A stretch of DNA of 64,000 nucleotides, from the NCBI GenBank assembly GCA_945873695.1, contig CAMCDX010000001.1, forward strand, positions 28,080 through 92,079. The letters are read 5' to 3'. The position numbers and the translations under genes are program-made. A model generated the notes under the pieces. The model saw nothing but the letters and a program-made list of their open reading frames with translations, was not told where the DNA came from and made no database searches. Origin of the DNA: an uncultured Clostridia bacterium (lineage in GTDB: Bacteria; Bacillota; Clostridia; Oscillospirales; Oscillospiraceae). This document shows, one piece after another, positions 27,663-47,631 of the stretch (positions within the stretch are counted from its first letter, which is position 1; each line of letters begins with the position of its first letter).

Positions 27663-27694
27663 ATCGTCCTCTCTTTCTTCATATCCTTCGCTTT

Positions 27695-27797
27695 CGTCGT
27701 CACAAAGTCCGCTCCGCTTCGTTTCCACCTATGGTGAAAACTTCACGTGCTCCCTTGTTCCTCCTCTCCCCACCGCACATGTGCGGCGGGGTCCCCG
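27695..27797. repeat. Dispersed hairpin repeat family A, copy 1
   Basis: cgtcgtcacaaagtccgctc...gtttcc...ggtgaaaac...gctcccttgttcctcctctccccaccgc...gcggcggggtcccc. Confidence 0.85.
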
Positions 27798-27826
27798 GAA
27801 ACGGCGAAAGCTCACTCATTTCGAAG

Positions 27827-27934
27827 CTCGTCCTCTCCCCACCGAACCCGCTCACCCGCAAGGGGTGCGCCGCATCCGTAAGCGGCAAAGCCGCCAACGG
27901 CTGCGCAGGCGCTGGGCTTCGGCGGGGGACCCCG
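27827..27934. repeat. Partial family A hairpin with family B segment (27854-27907) nested in its loop
   Basis: ctcgtcctctccccaccgaacccgct[...acccgcaaggggtgcgccgcatccgtaagcggcaaagccgccaacggctgcgca...]gctgggcttcggcggggg. Confidence 0.85.
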
Positions 27935-28913: not shown

Positions 28914-29030
28914 CGTCGTCTGAGCAAAGTCCGCTCATCTCCGTTTCCGCCGATCGGCGAAAACTGCGCTCGCTCCCTTGCTCCTCCTCTCCCCACTGGA
29001 ACCGCTCCGCTGGGTTCCAGCGGGGGCCCC
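28914..29030. repeat. Dispersed hairpin repeat family A, copy 2
   Basis: cgtcgtctgagcaaagtccgctcatctccgtttccgccgatcggcgaaaactgcgctcgctcccttgctcctcctctccccactggaaccgctccgctgggttccagcgggggcccc. Confidence 0.9.
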
Positions 29031-29221: not shown

Positions 29222-29338
29222 TCGTCGTCACAAAGTCCGCTCTGCTCATTCCCGCCTGCGGCAAGAATTCGCCACGCTACCTTGCTCCTCCTCTCCCCAC
29301 CGAAACCGCTATGCTGGGTTTCGGCGGGGTGGCCCCTT
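29222..29338. repeat. Dispersed hairpin repeat family A, copy 3
   Basis: tcgtcgtcacaaagtccgctctgctcattcccgcctgcggcaagaattcgccacgctaccttgctcctcctctccccaccgaaaccgctatgctgggtttcggcgggg. Confidence 0.9.
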
Positions 29339-29518: not shown

Positions 29519-29677
29519 TTACAGGCGCTCTGTCTCTTTCTCCTGCTCCTTCCGAAGCCGCTTGTCAAACCGGGCACACTTGGGATTCCGGCAGACGTAC
29601 ACCGTCTCTCTGGTTCCGTCCTCTTTCTCCTCTACCCGGTAGATCACCATCTCAAGCCCGCACTGTTTACAAACCAC
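29519..29677 (-). CDS. Small zinc-ribbon phage protein
   Basis: VVCKQCGLEMVIYRVEEKEDGTRETVYVCRNPKCARF; GTG start likely; overlaps portal end. Confidence 0.65.
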   Translation of the reverse strand: MVCKQCGLEMVIYRVEEKEDGTRETVYVCRNPKCARFDKRLRKEQEKETERL

Positions 29678-31739
29678 TTTGCTGCCCTCCCTGCATGGGC
29701 GTCTCCGCCGCCGTCTGCACACCCGGTGAGCCGCCCATATCTCCGACTGCACCGCCGGCCATAGCCGCCTGTACCGCCTGCTGCTCCCGCTGCTGTTCCA
29801 GCTCCTTCTGCAGGTCCTTCTTCATCTGGGCCGCCGTTGGATAGTGCAGCTGCTCCATGATGGTCCAGAACCGCACCAGGGTGGCCAGCTCCGTGGGCAC
29901 CCCGAAGGCGCCCTGCTGGAAGTTCATCCGGGTCTCCTGCCACATGGCCTCCCGGTTGGATGCCAGGGGCGCCGACGTGTCGCAGGAGAACAGGAAATCG
30001 GTGTTGTAAAGCCAGTTCCCCGCCTCGTCCTGATACAGGAAGTCGTGGCGGTCAAACAGCTTGTACTCCTTCTGGCCCTGCTCGTTGTAGGCCACCACCG
30101 GCCTGGGCTCGTCGCAGTAGGCCAGCAGGAACTTGAACATCAGCTCGAACAGGTCCTGATACTGTGCGTTCTTCATGGTCCGCTTGGACTCCAGACGGCC
30201 CGCCGCCTGTGCCGCCGCGAACTCCTTAGCCTTGCCGCTGGTGGCGGTGGGGTCCTTCCGGCCCTGGAAGCTGTCGGTGATGCCGATGGTCTCCTTGGCC
30301 TCCTCGTAGATCATGGCCCGCAGCGCCAGGTCGCTGTTCACATCCACCTGGGTGTTCCGCACCTGGAAGCACTCGATGTCCGCCGGGCCGTCCACTTCCA
30401 CCACCACGTTGTCCTCGTCGGTCACCGTCAGGTTCATGGACTTCTTCTTGGTGATGATGCTGCCTCCGCCCAGCACCTTCCGGTTGATCTTGGTAGACAG
30501 CTTGTTCAGGGTGTTCTGCTGGTCCTCGATGGCGTCAATGTCGCTGCCGCCCAGGAACCGCCCGCTCTTGCTGACGTTCTTCCGCAGCACCACCGGGAAC
30601 ACGTCCGGCTTGTAGTAGGGGATCTTCGTCGGCTCCATCACAGGCTCCTGCCTCGTCAGAGCAAAGTCCGCTACATTCGCCCCGGCCATCCGGCCAGGTC
30701 TCATGCCGCTCCCTTGCTCCTCCTCTCCCTCCGCAAACGCTCCGCTGGTTTGCGTCGGGGTTGGAAACGGTGTCAGCAGTTCCGAGTTCTCAGCGTTCCA
30801 ATAAAGCTGATTTCCAGGCATATCCCGGAACACCGGCTGGCCGTTCTCGTCCCTGGCCTGGCTCATAGCCGGGATCTTTGTGCCCATGGCGGTGGTCAGG
30901 TCCTCCGCCAGCTCTTCGTACTCCTGCAGCTCTTCGGTAAACCGCTTGCTGCCGCAGTACGGGCACTGGACGCCGTCGCCCACGGCCCCGCACTTGGCGC
31001 AGACCTGCACCCGCCGGGTCTGGTAGTCCTCCAGATCCTCACACACCACATCGTTGACCCACCGGAACCGGCCCACGCCGCCCTTGTCGTTGCGATAGTA
31101 TGCCGTGTGCAGCGTCACCAGCTCGTCGGAGGTGCTGTTGGCCCCGGCGCCGCGGAGCTCCGGGTCCTCCTCGTTCTCGTTGGACACGTCCACGCCGAAC
31201 CGCCGCTTCACCTGCTTCTTGGTGACGTACTCGTCCACAAACAGGTAATCCATGTCCGCCACCTGGTCTATGCCGTCCTGGGGCACGACCTTCCGGGGAT
31301 GCAGCAGCGTCAGCTTCAGGTCGCCCATCCAGCCCCGGCCCCGGGCCTGGGTAAACCACTCCAGCAGCAGCGCCATGCCGCCCTGGGTGGGGGTGATCCG
31401 CTCCGCCTCGTCGTTGATCCGCTCCATGGGCAGCCGGTCCAGCAGGTTCCGCAGCATGTCCTCCGCGATCTTGGCCAGAGGCTCGTCTTCCTCCCGCACC
31501 GCCGTCACCTTTGGCTGGGGGATGTTGCTGTCCACCTGGCTCTCCACCACCTCGAAGGCCACGTTCCTCACGTGTGTAGCGCTCTTTTTGGATGCGGTAC
31601 CGTCCGGCGTCATAATGACATGACTTCCGTCCACGATGTCCTCCCGCCGCTGCATCCGCTCCTTCTCGTCCGCGTAGGCCGCCGCCGACAGCCTGTATCT
31701 CTCCTGCCAGTGGTCCAGTCGATTGTTTTTCTTCTCCAT
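29667..31739 (-). CDS. Podovirus-type portal protein
   Basis: 690 aa, position between terS and scaffold; GGSDIDAIEDQQNTLNKLSTKINRKVLGGGSIITKKKSMNLTVTDED. Confidence 0.8.
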   Translation of the reverse strand: MEKKNNRLDHWQERYRLSAAAYADEKERMQRREDIVDGSHVIMTPDGTASKKSATHVRNVAFEVVESQVDSNIPQPKVTAVREEDEPLAKIAEDMLRNLLDRLPMERINDEAERITPTQGGMALLLEWFTQARGRGWMGDLKLTLLHPRKVVPQDGIDQVADMDYLFVDEYVTKKQVKRRFGVDVSNENEEDPELRGAGANSTSDELVTLHTAYYRNDKGGVGRFRWVNDVVCEDLEDYQTRRVQVCAKCGAVGDGVQCPYCGSKRFTEELQEYEELAEDLTTAMGTKIPAMSQARDENGQPVFRDMPGNQLYWNAENSELLTPFPTPTQTSGAFAEGEEEQGSGMRPGRMAGANVADFALTRQEPVMEPTKIPYYKPDVFPVVLRKNVSKSGRFLGGSDIDAIEDQQNTLNKLSTKINRKVLGGGSIITKKKSMNLTVTDEDNVVVEVDGPADIECFQVRNTQVDVNSDLALRAMIYEEAKETIGITDSFQGRKDPTATSGKAKEFAAAQAAGRLESKRTMKNAQYQDLFELMFKFLLAYCDEPRPVVAYNEQGQKEYKLFDRHDFLYQDEAGNWLYNTDFLFSCDTSAPLASNREAMWQETRMNFQQGAFGVPTELATLVRFWTIMEQLHYPTAAQMKKDLQKELEQQREQQAVQAAMAGGAVGDMGGSPGVQTAAETPMQGGQQSGL
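30653..30763. repeat. Family A repeat, copy 4, inside the portal CDS in an open frame
   Basis: ctcgtcagagcaaagtccgctacattcgccccggcc...gctcccttgctcctcctctccctccgcaaacgctccgctggtttgcgtcgggg. Confidence 0.88.
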
Positions 31740-31749
31740 CGTTTATCCT

Positions 31750-31841
31750 CCCGTAGGGCGGGGCGCCCCGCCCCGCCGCGTCGTCCTCGCACTCTCCTGT
31801 CGTCGCATATCCCGTAGGGCGGGGCGCCCCCGCCCCGCCGC
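31750..31841. repeat. Two copies of family D GC hairpin (31750-31779 and 31811-31841)
   Basis: ccgtagggcggggcgccccgccccgccg and cccgtagggcggggcgcccccgccccgccg between terS and portal. Confidence 0.85.
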
Positions 31842-31856
31842 TCGTCCTCTCAATCG

Positions 31857-33653: not shown

Positions 33654-33926
33654 CTACCCGCAAGGGGTATGCGACATCCGTAAGCGGCATAGCCGCCAAC
33701 GGCTGTCCAAAGGCTCTTTTCCAATTCCCAGCCGGGAGGCGGACCGCTGTTCCGTCTCCCTGGGAAAAGAGCCTTCCGCCCAAACATAGGCGTTTAAGAG
33801 CCCCTCAAAGAACGCACGCGCGTCCTTTGAATTGATATAGGTGTGTTCACTTCTCAAATCCGCCCCGGCCCAGCCGGAGTAGATTTCAAAGGTGATCTTT
33901 CCTACGGTATTCGCTCTTGACATTAC
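33654..33926 (-). CDS. Small hypothetical phage protein whose C-terminus is formed by a family B repeat
   Basis: MSRANTVGKITFEIYSGWAGADLRSEHTYINSKDARAFFEGLLNAYVW...; C-terminal RWRLCRLRMSHTPCG-stop is repeat-derived. Confidence 0.55.
   Translation of the reverse strand, partial: VMSRANTVGKITFEIYSGWAGADLRSEHTYINSKDARAFFEGLLNAYVWAEGSFPRETEQRSASRLGIGKEPLDSRWRLCRLRMSHTPCG
33656..33709. repeat. Family B repeat, solitary copy
   Basis: acccgcaaggggtatgcgacatccgtaagcggcatagccgccaacggctg matches the segments nested at 27854-27907 and 39781-39835. Confidence 0.85.
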
Positions 33927-37520: not shown

Positions 37521-37728
37521 GCCTCATCTCTCCTTTTCCATCCACCTGCAGCGCAGGCACTTTTTTTGCGTTGATCCCCGTACAGTCGGCTTTCCCAAAC
37601 AGACGTTGTGCCGATATGTCTCATAGCACTTTGGTTTCCTCCGGCTTTCCTTCTTCACTTCGGATTCCCCCACATTTTGATCATCCGCTCTCTTGTCTGG
37701 GCATCCGCCGCCCGGTAGTCCTCCCACT

Positions 37729-37836
37729 CGTCGTCACAAAGTCCGCTCACCTTCGTTTCCGCCTTCGGCGAAAACTGCGTTCACTCCCTTGCTCCTCCTC
37801 TCCAACTTGAACCCGCTCCACTGGGCTTCAAGTTGG
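37729..37836. repeat. Family A repeat, copy 5, immediately after the terL stop
   Basis: ctcgtcgtcacaaagtccgctcaccttcgtttccgccttcggcgaaaactgcgttcactcccttgctcctcctctccaacttgaacccgctccactgggcttcaagtt. Confidence 0.9.
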
Positions 37837-39627
37837 TTATGAAGGTAGTCCCCACTTTTTCAGCAACATCCGCCTCGTCTCAGCGTCTGCCCTCTCATAA
37901 TCTTCTCTCATATCTTCCGTCCACTTCCGTTTCTCTCCGGCTGCCGCCTCCACGGTGTACCGCTGCTGTCCCCGGATGGCGTGGGCGATGGCCGCCGCCA
38001 TCACCAGGTCGTCGTGCTCTCCAGACGCCGCCTCCGGCTTCCGGTCCTTGCCGTATACAAAGGTCAGCATCTCCCCCAGTGTCTCGAAGCTCACCACCAG
38101 CTCCGGGGCCTCGTCCATGACCGTGTGGAGCCCCGCCAGAATGATGGGCCGTGTCTTGGGGCTGGTGACCCAGCCGAAGGACTTGACCATCTTGTTTTTG
38201 TAGGTGTCGAACCGCTCCCGCTGGTACAGGTTCGGGTAGTGCCACTCCTCCAGCTTCAGCTCCGGATAGGTGGAGAAGTTCACCTCCACGCCGATGAGCG
38301 CGTCGTTATAGTAATGCCCCAGGCAGAAGATCTGCCGGGCGTACAGGATCTCGCTGAGCGGGTGCTGCAGCTCCGCCACCTGGTGGCCGTCCGTGTTGTC
38401 GATGACGTGGGCCGTGAAGCAGTCGCTGCCCTCTCCGGCGGTGTCTCCGCCGATGACATATGGCCGCCCCGGCACCGGCTCCTCGTAAATACGGATAAAG
38501 TTGTTTTCCTTTCCACCCTCTGTAAACCGCCAGTTTTTGGGCTCTCCGCCCTCGATCTCCGGCTCGTCGTGCTGGAACAGGCCCATTCGCAGCGGCGTCG
38601 GTGTCGCCCGCCGCCGGGCCATGACGATGTCGTTGTCGAAGAACGGATCACCGGACAGCAGGAAGGCCTCGTCCGGTGTGTTTGGGTACTCCTGTCGGAA
38701 CAGCTGCTCGTCTCCGCCGCAGTTGGTCTTGATGCACCACCGCCGCCAGCTCAGCTGCTCCTCGTCGAGGCAAAGTCCGCTATACTCGCCCCGGCCTTTC
38801 GTCCAGGGCTCGAACCGCTCCCTTGCCTCTCCTCTCCCCACCGGACCCGCTTCGCTGGGCTCCGGCGGGGGCCCCATCATTGCCTTCTCCGCTTCTGTCC
38901 AGACGGTTCCTGGTTCTACCGGCTTGCGATACTCCGGCTCCATGTACCATGGCAGGAACACCGGCCGCCAGCCGTTGGTCCCGGCCACGGCTCCGTCCCA
39001 GAGGTCCTTGAACTCGTTGAAGCCGTTGGCGGTGCTTTCGATGATGACCATAGTGTCCGGATCATCCGGCACAGCCTGCATAATGCCCAGCAGCGTCTCC
39101 TTGACCTCTCCCGTCCAGAAGGCCAGCTCCGACAGATGCACGTTGTTGAAGGTCTCCGACCGGCCCACGCCCTTGCCGCCTGCCGTGACGCAGCTGATGC
39201 GGGACCGCAGCCCCGGCCGCCGCCGCTTCTCGTCCTCGTTCCGGGTGGGGTTCTCGAACACCAGTTCCTTGGCGTTGGAATTCTTCCGCATGGGCTGGAG
39301 CGCCTTGGGCAGGCAGTCGTAGAACAGCTTGTTCATGCGGAACAGGGCGCTGGTGGCCTTGTCCTGGTGTGCCACGATCAGGGTGTTCACCATGGGCCGG
39401 GTGGCGCTGTCCTGGAACATCAGGGCCTCTGTGGCGGTAGAGATACCCTCCTGCCGCCCCTTCAGCACGATCAGGCGCACCGGCCGTCCGGCCTGGTGCT
39501 CCTCCTTGATGATGCGGTACAGGTTCTCCTGCGCCGGCTTGAACTTCAGCTTCACCAGCTGCTGCTTCTTATCCCGGATGTACAGGTAGTTCTCGCAGTA
39601 TTCCTTTGGATTCCTAATGTTGATCAC
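37837..39627 (-). CDS. terL: Terminase large subunit
   Basis: VLKGRQEGISTATEALMF, SELAFWTGEVKETLLGIMQ, VIIESTANGFNEF, FRQEYPNTPDEAFLLSG; GTG start at 39627. Confidence 0.92.
   Translation of the reverse strand: MINIRNPKEYCENYLYIRDKKQQLVKLKFKPAQENLYRIIKEEHQAGRPVRLIVLKGRQEGISTATEALMFQDSATRPMVNTLIVAHQDKATSALFRMNKLFYDCLPKALQPMRKNSNAKELVFENPTRNEDEKRRRPGLRSRISCVTAGGKGVGRSETFNNVHLSELAFWTGEVKETLLGIMQAVPDDPDTMVIIESTANGFNEFKDLWDGAVAGTNGWRPVFLPWYMEPEYRKPVEPGTVWTEAEKAMMGPPPEPSEAGPVGRGEARERFEPWTKGRGEYSGLCLDEEQLSWRRWCIKTNCGGDEQLFRQEYPNTPDEAFLLSGDPFFDNDIVMARRRATPTPLRMGLFQHDEPEIEGGEPKNWRFTEGGKENNFIRIYEEPVPGRPYVIGGDTAGEGSDCFTAHVIDNTDGHQVAELQHPLSEILYARQIFCLGHYYNDALIGVEVNFSTYPELKLEEWHYPNLYQRERFDTYKNKMVKSFGWVTSPKTRPIILAGLHTVMDEAPELVVSFETLGEMLTFVYGKDRKPEAASGEHDDLVMAAAIAHAIRGQQRYTVEAAAGEKRKWTEDMREDYERADAETRRMLLKKWGLPS
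38761..38875. repeat. Family A repeat, copy 6, inside the terL CDS in an open frame
   Basis: ctcgtcgaggcaaagtccgctatactcgccccggcctttcgtccagggctcgaaccgctcccttgcctctcctctccccaccggacccgcttcgctgggctccggcgggggcccc. Confidence 0.9.
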
Positions 39628-39630
39628 TAC

Positions 39631-39857
39631 GTCGTCCTCACAAACTCCACTGTTTTCGCCCCCCGGCCTTGCCGAGGTCTCAATTCGTTCCGTTGCTCGA
39701 TCCCTATCCCCTCTGTCGCCTCCGGCGACATCTCCCCTTGATAAGGGGAGTCTTCCTCTCCCCACCGAACCCGCTACGACACCCGCAAGGGGTACGCCGC
39801 ATCCGTAGCGCTCCTTCGTCGCTGACGGCTGCGCAGTGGGCTTCGGTGGGGTCCCCC
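39631..39857. repeat. Composite repeat upstream of terL: family A tail, family C hairpin and nested family B (39781-39835)
   Basis: gtcgtcctcacaaactccact...cccctctgtcgcctccggcgacatctccccttgataaggggag...cctctccccaccgaacccgct[acccgcaaggggtacgccgcatccg...cggctgcgca]gtgggcttcggtgggg. Confidence 0.82.
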
Positions 39858-40456: not shown

Positions 40457-40968
40457 GGTCTTTTTCTCCTCCCTTGCAGGCTCCGCCGCCTGTCCTGTCC
40501 TGTCCTGTCCTGTCCTGTCCTGTCCTGTCCTGTCCGCGTCCTCTCTGGCTCCGTATCCCTCATGGGTGTCTTCCTCGTGGGTATTTTTTCTCCGTGTCTT
40601 CCGCCGGAGGTTGCGTTTGCCGGCAGCTGATTTCGCCTTCTCCAGTTGCAGACGGTGGGCGGGCTCACGCCGATCTCCCTTGCGATCTCCCCGTCGTTTG
40701 CGCCGGTCCGGTACAGCTCCTCCGCCCTTTCCCAGTTGACCTTCTTTCTGCCCGGCTTTGTCTGCGTCTCCACCGCTTTCGGTTCTGCTCTCTTTTTCAG
40801 GAACTCCGCTGCCGCTTCCGGTGTCTCCAGCTTTCCCCCGGCGATGAAGTATGTACACTTCTCCTCCGGCTGTGCCTTTCTGGTATGCCCCACCAGCCAT
40901 GCATAATCGCACATGTTCTTTCCGGGCTTCCCTCGGAAGGCGCATTCCTTACACCGAATCTCTTCCAT
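40453..40968 (-). CDS. HTH DNA-binding phage protein with N-terminal Cys motif and repeat-encoded C-terminus
   Basis: MEEIRCKECAFRGKPG...WERAEELYRTGANDGEIAREIGVSPPTVCNWRRR...RTGQDRTGQDRTGQDRR. Confidence 0.7.
   Translation of the reverse strand: MEEIRCKECAFRGKPGKNMCDYAWLVGHTRKAQPEEKCTYFIAGGKLETPEAAAEFLKKRAEPKAVETQTKPGRKKVNWERAEELYRTGANDGEIAREIGVSPPTVCNWRRRNQLPANATSGGRHGEKIPTRKTPMRDTEPERTRTGQDRTGQDRTGQDRRRSLQGRRKRP
40491..40535. repeat. Pentanucleotide tandem repeat (TGTCC)9
   Basis: Nine perfect consecutive tgtcc units inside the HTH CDS. Confidence 0.98.
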
Positions 40969-47443: not shown

Positions 47444-47517
47444 TTTTTGTAACCTCCTCTTGACGTTCTATGTGTCTTTGTGTAAACTGTTGTTGGTTTC
47501 CTTGTGTTAATATGATA

Positions 47518-47535
47518 TTCCCTCAAAAGAGGGAA
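47518..47535. promoter_or_regulatory. Operator O1
   Basis: TTCCCTCAAAAGAGGGAA, 7-bp arms. Confidence 0.85.
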
Positions 47536-47547
47536 GTCAATAGCATA

Positions 47548-47565
47548 TTCCCTCTTTTGAGGGAA
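47548..47565. promoter_or_regulatory. Operator O2
   Basis: TTCCCTCTTTTGAGGGAA; 30 bp from O1. Confidence 0.85.
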
Positions 47566-47631
47566 TATTGTCGTATCATACAAAAACAGCACCGCCAAAT
47601 TGACGGTGCTGTGCAGAAAGCCGGTGTATTT

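Follow-up and report, generated by a model that had tools for sequence, protein, structure and literature searches.

Palindromic mobile DNA that resides in frame within protein-coding genes has been described for Rickettsia, in the form of the Rickettsia palindromic elements (RPEs; for review see PMC10969869). The element that is the subject of this analysis resembles the RPEs in being short (~100-150 bp), palindromic and mobile, and in being found and tolerated in frame in unrelated genes, in this case terL, portal and metK. It differs from them in that it belongs to another host phylum, consists of two separate hairpins with conserved linkers, occurs in phages and mobile elements besides chromosomes, and lacks a conserved peptide, as the frames used in terL and portal are different. 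Moreover, we know of no RPE for which gene-end duplications or guides that match the target have been found. Taken alone, the terL case described below is a new instance, in phage genes, of RPE-type behavior. It shows a structured mobile repeat that is tolerated in frame in two essential phage packaging genes, and it thus touches on the question, raised long ago by the Rickettsia elements, of how such in-frame insertions work.

A second likeness is to the ends of the IS200/IS605 elements, including their non-autonomous, PATE-like derivatives, which have a hairpin near each end and a 5' guide that pairs with the cleavage site, the target being chosen by base pairing (PMC5934647). The guide layout has been described for IS608, which can be redirected by altering the guide and for which targets of 12/17 nt were engineered (PMC5934647). 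The same type of organization is seen here in helices 1-5, in a guide helix at the insertion point P (see below) and in the pairing of GAGGAGGAGC with GCGACGACGA. Nevertheless, the guide is 10-18 nt long and spans the junction, against 4 nt in IS200/IS605, the element neither contains a transposase gene nor adjoins one, and gene ends are duplicated. IS200/IS605 elements, in turn, make no target duplication.

Two further groups deserve mention. The REP/BIME sequences that are associated with RAYTs are also palindromic, present in high copy number and mostly extragenic; TnpA_REP, which is related to the IS200/IS605 enzymes, cleaves at CT (PMC8266576), and the junction is here usually T|G. The present element is longer, has two hairpins, lacks the GTAG tag, forms no head-to-head dimers and flanks no RAYT-type gene. 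The enterobacterial units RU-1, RU-2 and RU-3 are, according to the accessible part of their description, mobile intergenic repeats of ~100-170 bp that also occur inside genes (Delihas 2007, PMC2759123); they are unrelated, MITE-like units, and that part of the description reports neither a guide nor a gene-end duplication. The literature that was searched contained no description of a covarying two-hairpin family, of gene-end duplications or of natural long guides, an absence that is in itself no proof of novelty.

The insert in the large terminase gene

The window, by which we mean the whole stretch of 64,000 nucleotides that was analyzed, contains a prophage with genes for a portal protein (phrog_156), a virion structural protein, a candidate small terminase, an integrase and the large terminase TerL. 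The terL ORF (37837..39765, minus strand) encodes 642 amino acids and was identified by its match to PHROG phrog_2, terminase large subunit (1.2e-24), whereas a Pfam search with TerL gave no match. A sequence-only reading of the window had noted a repeat at 38761-38875 within the open terL frame, encoding MMGPPPEPSEAGPVGRGEARERFEPWTKGRGEYSGLC and followed by LDEEQLSWRRWC. This was confirmed, with the ends now placed at 38762..38875 on the minus strand. The repeat is a full-length copy of a two-hairpin element of 102-122 nt, here 114 nt or 38 codons, which runs from GGGG at its 5' end to GACGA at its 3' end (E 4e-18 with the covariance model of the family) and is read in frame as GPPPEPSEAGPVGRGEARERFEPWTKGRGEYSGLC(LDE). 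Its presence is not due to chance, because the window harbors further members of the family, all of them on the minus strand.

TerL relatives were drawn from viral contigs and 86 congeneric genomes, and the alignment comprised this TerL and 17 other sequences. Residues equivalent to the insert were looked for in close homologues without the repeat, and the claim that an insertion is involved survived this comparison: 15 homologues lack the insert, and in these EE(Q/K/R/E) and LDxEQ are separated by seven residues (KLREEYG, KLQEQYG, ALMEAYH and others), compared to 38 in this TerL. The event was not a pure addition, since residues of the KLREEYG type have been replaced, 38 for seven, with a net gain of 31. 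The sequence-only reading had also asked whether the insert falls in a linker away from the active sites, and its position is indeed a linker. The insert covers about amino acids 297-333, downstream of the ATPase motifs (GRQEGIS around amino acid 100 and STAN around 244) and upstream of the nuclease motifs (GGDTAGEGSD with D441, and HDD at 584-586). In an AlphaFold model of TerL, based on nine sequences and with a mean pLDDT of 48, residues 300-331 score below 50 and are left unstructured, which weakly suggests that the region is a disordered linker. That the insertion is tolerated can be understood from its length of 114 nt, the lack of stops in frame and its position between the ATPase and nuclease motifs. 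TerL carries a second trace of the family at its N-terminus, where a degenerate upstream copy (39632..39755, minus strand; E 4e-6) provides the first ~45 residues, as judged from the alignment.

The same insert was recovered in two other terL alleles, L009 from a viral contig and L020 from genome G074. The allele L021 of genome G075 has no terL insert; instead, a copy of another subfamily lies in frame nine codons upstream, and was found by the same covariance model (L384 16095-16196, E 2.9e-6). With the inserts set aside, identity amounts to 98% between L009 and L021 and to 78% between the allele of the window (L019) and L009. Within the insert, the latter two, as well as L019 and L020, differ at only 3-4 of 117 positions. 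None of the 39 third positions differ in the insert codons, compared to roughly 20-47% in the flanking blocks, and the near-identity begins and ends within a few bases of the element. Considering that the insert is present or absent in alleles that are 98% identical elsewhere, it is both mobile and tolerated. The stretch that separates the two insertion sites also contains a short tract in which L009 differs from L021, and the insert may therefore have moved with a short recombination patch. Whichever way it was acquired, the terL insert is recent and dispensable, the insertion and its tolerance being established by the alignment and the comparison of alleles. The three alleles that bear the insert contain no stop, and in L020 the loop of hairpin 1 is expanded by 14 codons (42 nt) with the frame kept; on these grounds the insert is presumably translated.

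Conservation of the DNA rather than of the peptide

The sequence-only reading had further stressed that two essential packaging genes carry the same element in open frames. The second of these is the portal gene (29667..31739, minus strand; 690 codons; phrog_156 portal, 2.9e-46), and its copy (30653..30764, minus strand; E 1e-12) is indeed real and in frame, being read as ...SGAFAEGEEEQGSGMRPGRMAGANVADFALT in the portal alignment, where the homologues have variable and mostly shorter linkers before EPTRIPFYKPDIFP. The idea does not extend to the peptide: the element is read as ...VADFALT in portal and as ...YSGLC in terL, i.e. in two different frames, and therefore it is the DNA that is conserved and not the encoded peptide. 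In line with the variable use of frames, the numbers of copies, out of 89, with an open reading in the three sense frames are 67, 54 and 57, and the lengths of the copies are not confined to multiples of three. A third case of an in-frame copy is found in a metK paralog of genome G029, where a copy of 114 nt has entered at AT|GGG. Five paralogs lack the copy, and the comparison of filled and empty sites is clean, with no target duplication.

A family of two-hairpin elements

Copies of the element were found in many Oscillospiraceae and in some other Clostridia, with sharp ends (GGGG at the 5' side and GACGA at the 3' side) that can be written as GGGG...GACGACGA. The lengths given above were taken from 58 non-redundant copies. 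In the terL copy, hairpin 1 (38836..38870, minus strand) is formed by CCCCGCCGGA and TCCGGTGGGG and corresponds to the covarying helix 1, for which 97% of the cells are paired among 51 copies. Hairpin 2 (38762..38835, minus strand), assigned from the sequence and from helices 2-5, is closed by the pairing of AGAGGAGAGGCAAGG with CTTTGCCTCGACGA at the 3' end, in agreement with the family at large, in which the 3' tail is base-paired to the strand lying 5' of hairpin 2. The stems are variable and the linker GGGGAGAGGAGGAGCAAGGGAGCG and tail AGCGGACTTTGCGACGACGA are conserved. The linker GAGAGGC and the tail GCCTCGA of the terL copy represent a matched change, and as AGGC/GCCT takes the place of the tandem G.A pairs of the consensus, the pairing has been kept. 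Among the 51 diverse copies, 95.2% of the pair cells hold standard pairs and 17 of the 29 pairs have changed on both sides. The covariation score amounts to 0.336 for these copies, compared to 0.134 for shuffled alignments and 0.06-0.11 for slid structures. Rfam provided no family over the element, neither at E<=5 for the window nor at E<=1 for eight loci.

The family model has matches in 71 of the 86 congeneric genomes, with 21 matches in the genome studied here and up to 38 in a single genome. Within the window and in related prophages, all matches listed are on the coding strand. Besides the copies inside terL and portal, the window contains three intergenic copies on the minus strand, at 28916..29030 (E 2.2e-21), 29222..29334 (E 1.2e-18) and 27694..27796 (E 3.6e-20), and an adjacent copy at 27821..27932 (minus strand; E 0.0089), recognized also from its sequence, whose hairpin 1 loop harbors a different, nested repeat. 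Known phage records yielded one weak, partial match and known plasmid records none. Near-consensus copies were observed in contigs of Lachnospiraceae and Erysipelotrichaceae (L113, L118, L144 and L150), and their recurrent neighbors resemble genes of integrative elements, which suggests transfer on such elements.

Duplicated gene ends

A sizeable minority of the copies are followed directly by a duplicate of the upstream gene's 3' end, which starts from the first base past GACGA. We refer to the upstream and downstream gene ends as X1 and X2, respectively, and to the position in the gene where X2 starts as P. On basis of their C-termini, compared by eye, we take the genes involved to include eno, pgk, tpiA, fusA, alaS, smc, nadE, ychF, minD, rpsI, rnhA, telA, flagellin and phage portal. 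The functional stop codon lies in X1, and X2 is decaying in some genomes (G056, G032). X1 and X2 differ mostly by synonymous changes (118.7 versus 92.3, with around 3.4 times more nonsynonymous sites), giving a pN/pS of 0.23 for a set in which a few frames are uncertain. Most copies point in the same direction as the gene upstream (42 of the 58 intergenic cases that were clear).

The 3' end of terL itself provides an example. The element copy at 37728..37841 (minus strand; E 5.6e-18) overlaps the stop codon. X1, the functional end of terL (37837..37909, minus strand), encodes REDYERADAETRRMLLKKWGLPS and the stop, and is identical to prophage L022 at 54 of 73 nt. X2 (37655..37727, minus strand), which encodes WEDYRAADAQTRERMIKMWGNPK and a stop, starts right after GACGA and constitutes a complete alternative end of terL; it is identical to prophage L023 at 63 of 73 nt and to X1 at 41 of 73. 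Given that X1 is like L022 and X2 like L023, the two ends appear to come from two phage lineages. In fusA of L460 the duplication measures 118 nt and the coding parts are identical, so that it looks like a true target duplication.

Some variations on the theme were observed. Behind tpiA, nadE and telA, tandem arrays of gene end plus element occur, with units of ~195-222 nt (L156, L180, L195, L286). The genome studied here has a smc gene-end unit with a shortened X2 (L215, on G000:C9), the full unit being present in around a dozen congeneric genomes. In L130 (1239-1517) an element separates two c-di-GMP-I riboswitch aptamers, of which the upstream one is a weak match, and this tandem riboswitch may have arisen by a duplication of the gene-end type. 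An element in frame inside a methylase-related phage ORF (L123 5662-7411, in minus-strand coordinates) is preceded by a protein segment that is repeated after it (DLGEVSGALM / DLHDVAGALG), and represents a unit whose X1 has no stop.

Guide sequences at the insertion point

In many gene-end units, the 10-18 nt before hairpin 1 are complementary to the gene at P, as illustrated by smc, where the guide GCATGGTGACGCC faces GGCGTCACCATGC. In a scan of 110 copies that made no use of X2, P fell 6-9 nt inside the helix, in most cases at 7, for the strongest helices with a matching X2. P is usually preceded by T and followed by G (T|G). Each guide helix was then compared with every other position in its own upstream sequence. 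A helix with p<0.01 was obtained for 10 of 28 copies in the derivation set and for 9 of 16 in a newly fetched set (Fisher 5e-14), the latter including some orthologs of derivation loci (nadE), so that the copies are not all independent. At smc and the model loci the number was 12 of 20, many of which are orthologous and hence not independent. The smc guide is nearly invariant over around a dozen genomes and the next 4-6 nt vary. Around half of the duplicated copies showed no significant guide, and none that matches its own junction was found for the insert within terL. The latter copy is comparable to that in metK, in that the insertion is bare and only the element is present at both internal sites. 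The guides that match the landing site suggest that target sites were chosen by base pairing, and in that sense the family holds a readable record of target choice, with guides complementary to the insertion points in housekeeping genes such as eno, pgk, fusA, smc and nadE.

Proposed mobilization of the element

As for the mechanism, we infer that the terL insert is a non-autonomous element that was probably mobilized as single strand, in trans, via base-pairing guides, and that it is translated as a tolerated linker of 38 residues, an interpretation drawn from sequence comparison to which we give somewhat better than even chances. Mobilization would proceed in the manner of the IS200/IS605 ends. 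Each hairpin would be preceded on its 5' side by a sequence that pairs with one of two cleavage sites: GAGGAGGAGC would have its partner in the 3' end of the element itself, GCGACGACGA|, and the guide of 10-18 nt in front of hairpin 1 would bind the site of left cleavage and targeting (about -7 to +6, usually T|G). A putative enzyme supplied in trans would cleave and ligate at the paired sites. At the 3' ends of genes, the mobile unit would consist of the donor gene end (X1), the guide and the element. It would enter a homologous gene at the matching site and leave the old end of the recipient behind as X2; with X1 brought in and X2 left behind, the gene would stay intact. The direct repeats that flank the gene-end copies are taken, in this interpretation, as carried donor DNA. 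More tentatively, and with the odds somewhat against it, the gene-end units may be guide-directed homing units, in which a two-hairpin element, carrying a gene 3' end and an antisense guide of 10-18 nt, enters the homologous conserved gene of a different strain or phage at a precise position and swaps the C-terminal end while the gene stays intact. If the guide is active, this would be a compact natural system for programmable insertion, widespread among gut bacteria that are abundant, and mosaic gene ends would find an explanation; if the homing holds, gene ends would be inserted by a putative enzyme in a manner naturally programmed by base pairing.

Genomes with a Y1 transposase are richer in copies (median 16.5 versus 4.5, p 0.0009, for genomes that are at least 90% complete), a correlation that may reflect genome size or the general load of mobile DNA. 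Among 44 Y1 transposase loci (115 kb) there were none with an element nearby, and the element-rich genomes G002, G074, G082 and G083 have no Y1_Tnp. The recurrent neighbor proteins around the copies comprised integrative-element cargo only and no common mobilizer. The interpretation also does not account for the origin of guides for new genes. Based on the layout of guide and two hairpins and on the association with Y1, single-strand guide-directed mobilization in trans was nevertheless judged most likely, ahead of plain recombination, RNA-guided retro-homing and splicing.

Plain recombination would dispense with special homing altogether: one rare insertion would have made both the duplication and the inverted copy of the target, and vertical descent would have followed, together with ordinary homologous recombination in which X1 and X2 act as homology arms. 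The orthologous smc copies in many congeneric genomes, the decay of X2 in G056 and G032 and the patch around the terL insert, which resembles a short recombination tract, all fit such a history. We nevertheless regard it as rather unlikely, considering that the near-invariance of the smc guide beside the variable 4-6 nt suggests a function after insertion, that the P sites in eno differ in three genomes, which implies repeated insertions, and that gain or loss has occurred between terL alleles that are otherwise 98% identical.

Still less likely is RNA-guided retro-homing, in which a transcript composed of gene end, guide and hairpins would pair with the target, a nick would be made, and a target-primed reverse transcriptase would copy from the exact 3' end, the 5' side being resolved by homology or by a staggered second cut. 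Such a process would match the exact 3' junction and the duplicated or homology-floating 5' side, the shared direction of copies and upstream genes together with the coding-strand bias in the prophages, and the 118-nt duplication in fusA. However, the relation between presence of RVT_1 and copy number was not significant (p 0.08-0.14), several element-rich genomes have no RVT_1 match, and guides for new genes are equally unaccounted for.

The crowding of many repeats in the late-gene region could also mean that the prophage has decayed and that the terL and portal insertions mark a dead gene cluster. We consider this improbable, as both genes are open over their full 642 and 690 codons, the three insert-bearing terL alleles are free of stops, and L009 stems from a viral-contig collection. 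An intron-like behavior, with splicing from P to GACGA| and the same C-terminus produced from spliced and unspliced message, would agree with a guide that spans the exon junction (about -7 to +6, often ending in U) like the internal guide sequence of group I introns and with the coding constraint on X2, but is highly improbable given that the gene-end units lie at 3' ends where X1 is complete up to and including the stop, which makes splicing unneeded, that the frame is kept through the 42-nt loop expansion in L020, and that the element is too small for a known self-splicing intron and lacks an Rfam match.

Splicing of terL itself, as intron or intein, was rejected, since excision would delete the conserved REEYGLD region and the frames are preserved. 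An intein is also at odds with the 38 residues of low complexity and the other frame in portal, compared to a splicing domain of ~130 amino acids or more with conserved blocks.

Other repeats in the window

The repeat nested in the copy at 27821..27932 (ACCCGCAAGGGG..GCATCCGTA..GCCGTTGGC) was observed at 27854-27903, 33656-33705 and ~39780-39840, and occurs both solitary and nested in hairpin 1 loops of element copies. Upstream of the portal gene, a GC-rich palindromic repeat, TCCCGTAGGGCGGGGCGCCCC, is present in near-tandem arrangement (31749-31855). The candidate small terminase ORF contains tandem CTGTC repeats (~40500-40560) with several frames open, and this tract is a possible length-variable site. 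Finally, an inverted repeat of 40 nt (78%) with a 12-nt spacer is found at 47496-47587, near a change in gene direction and the integrase.
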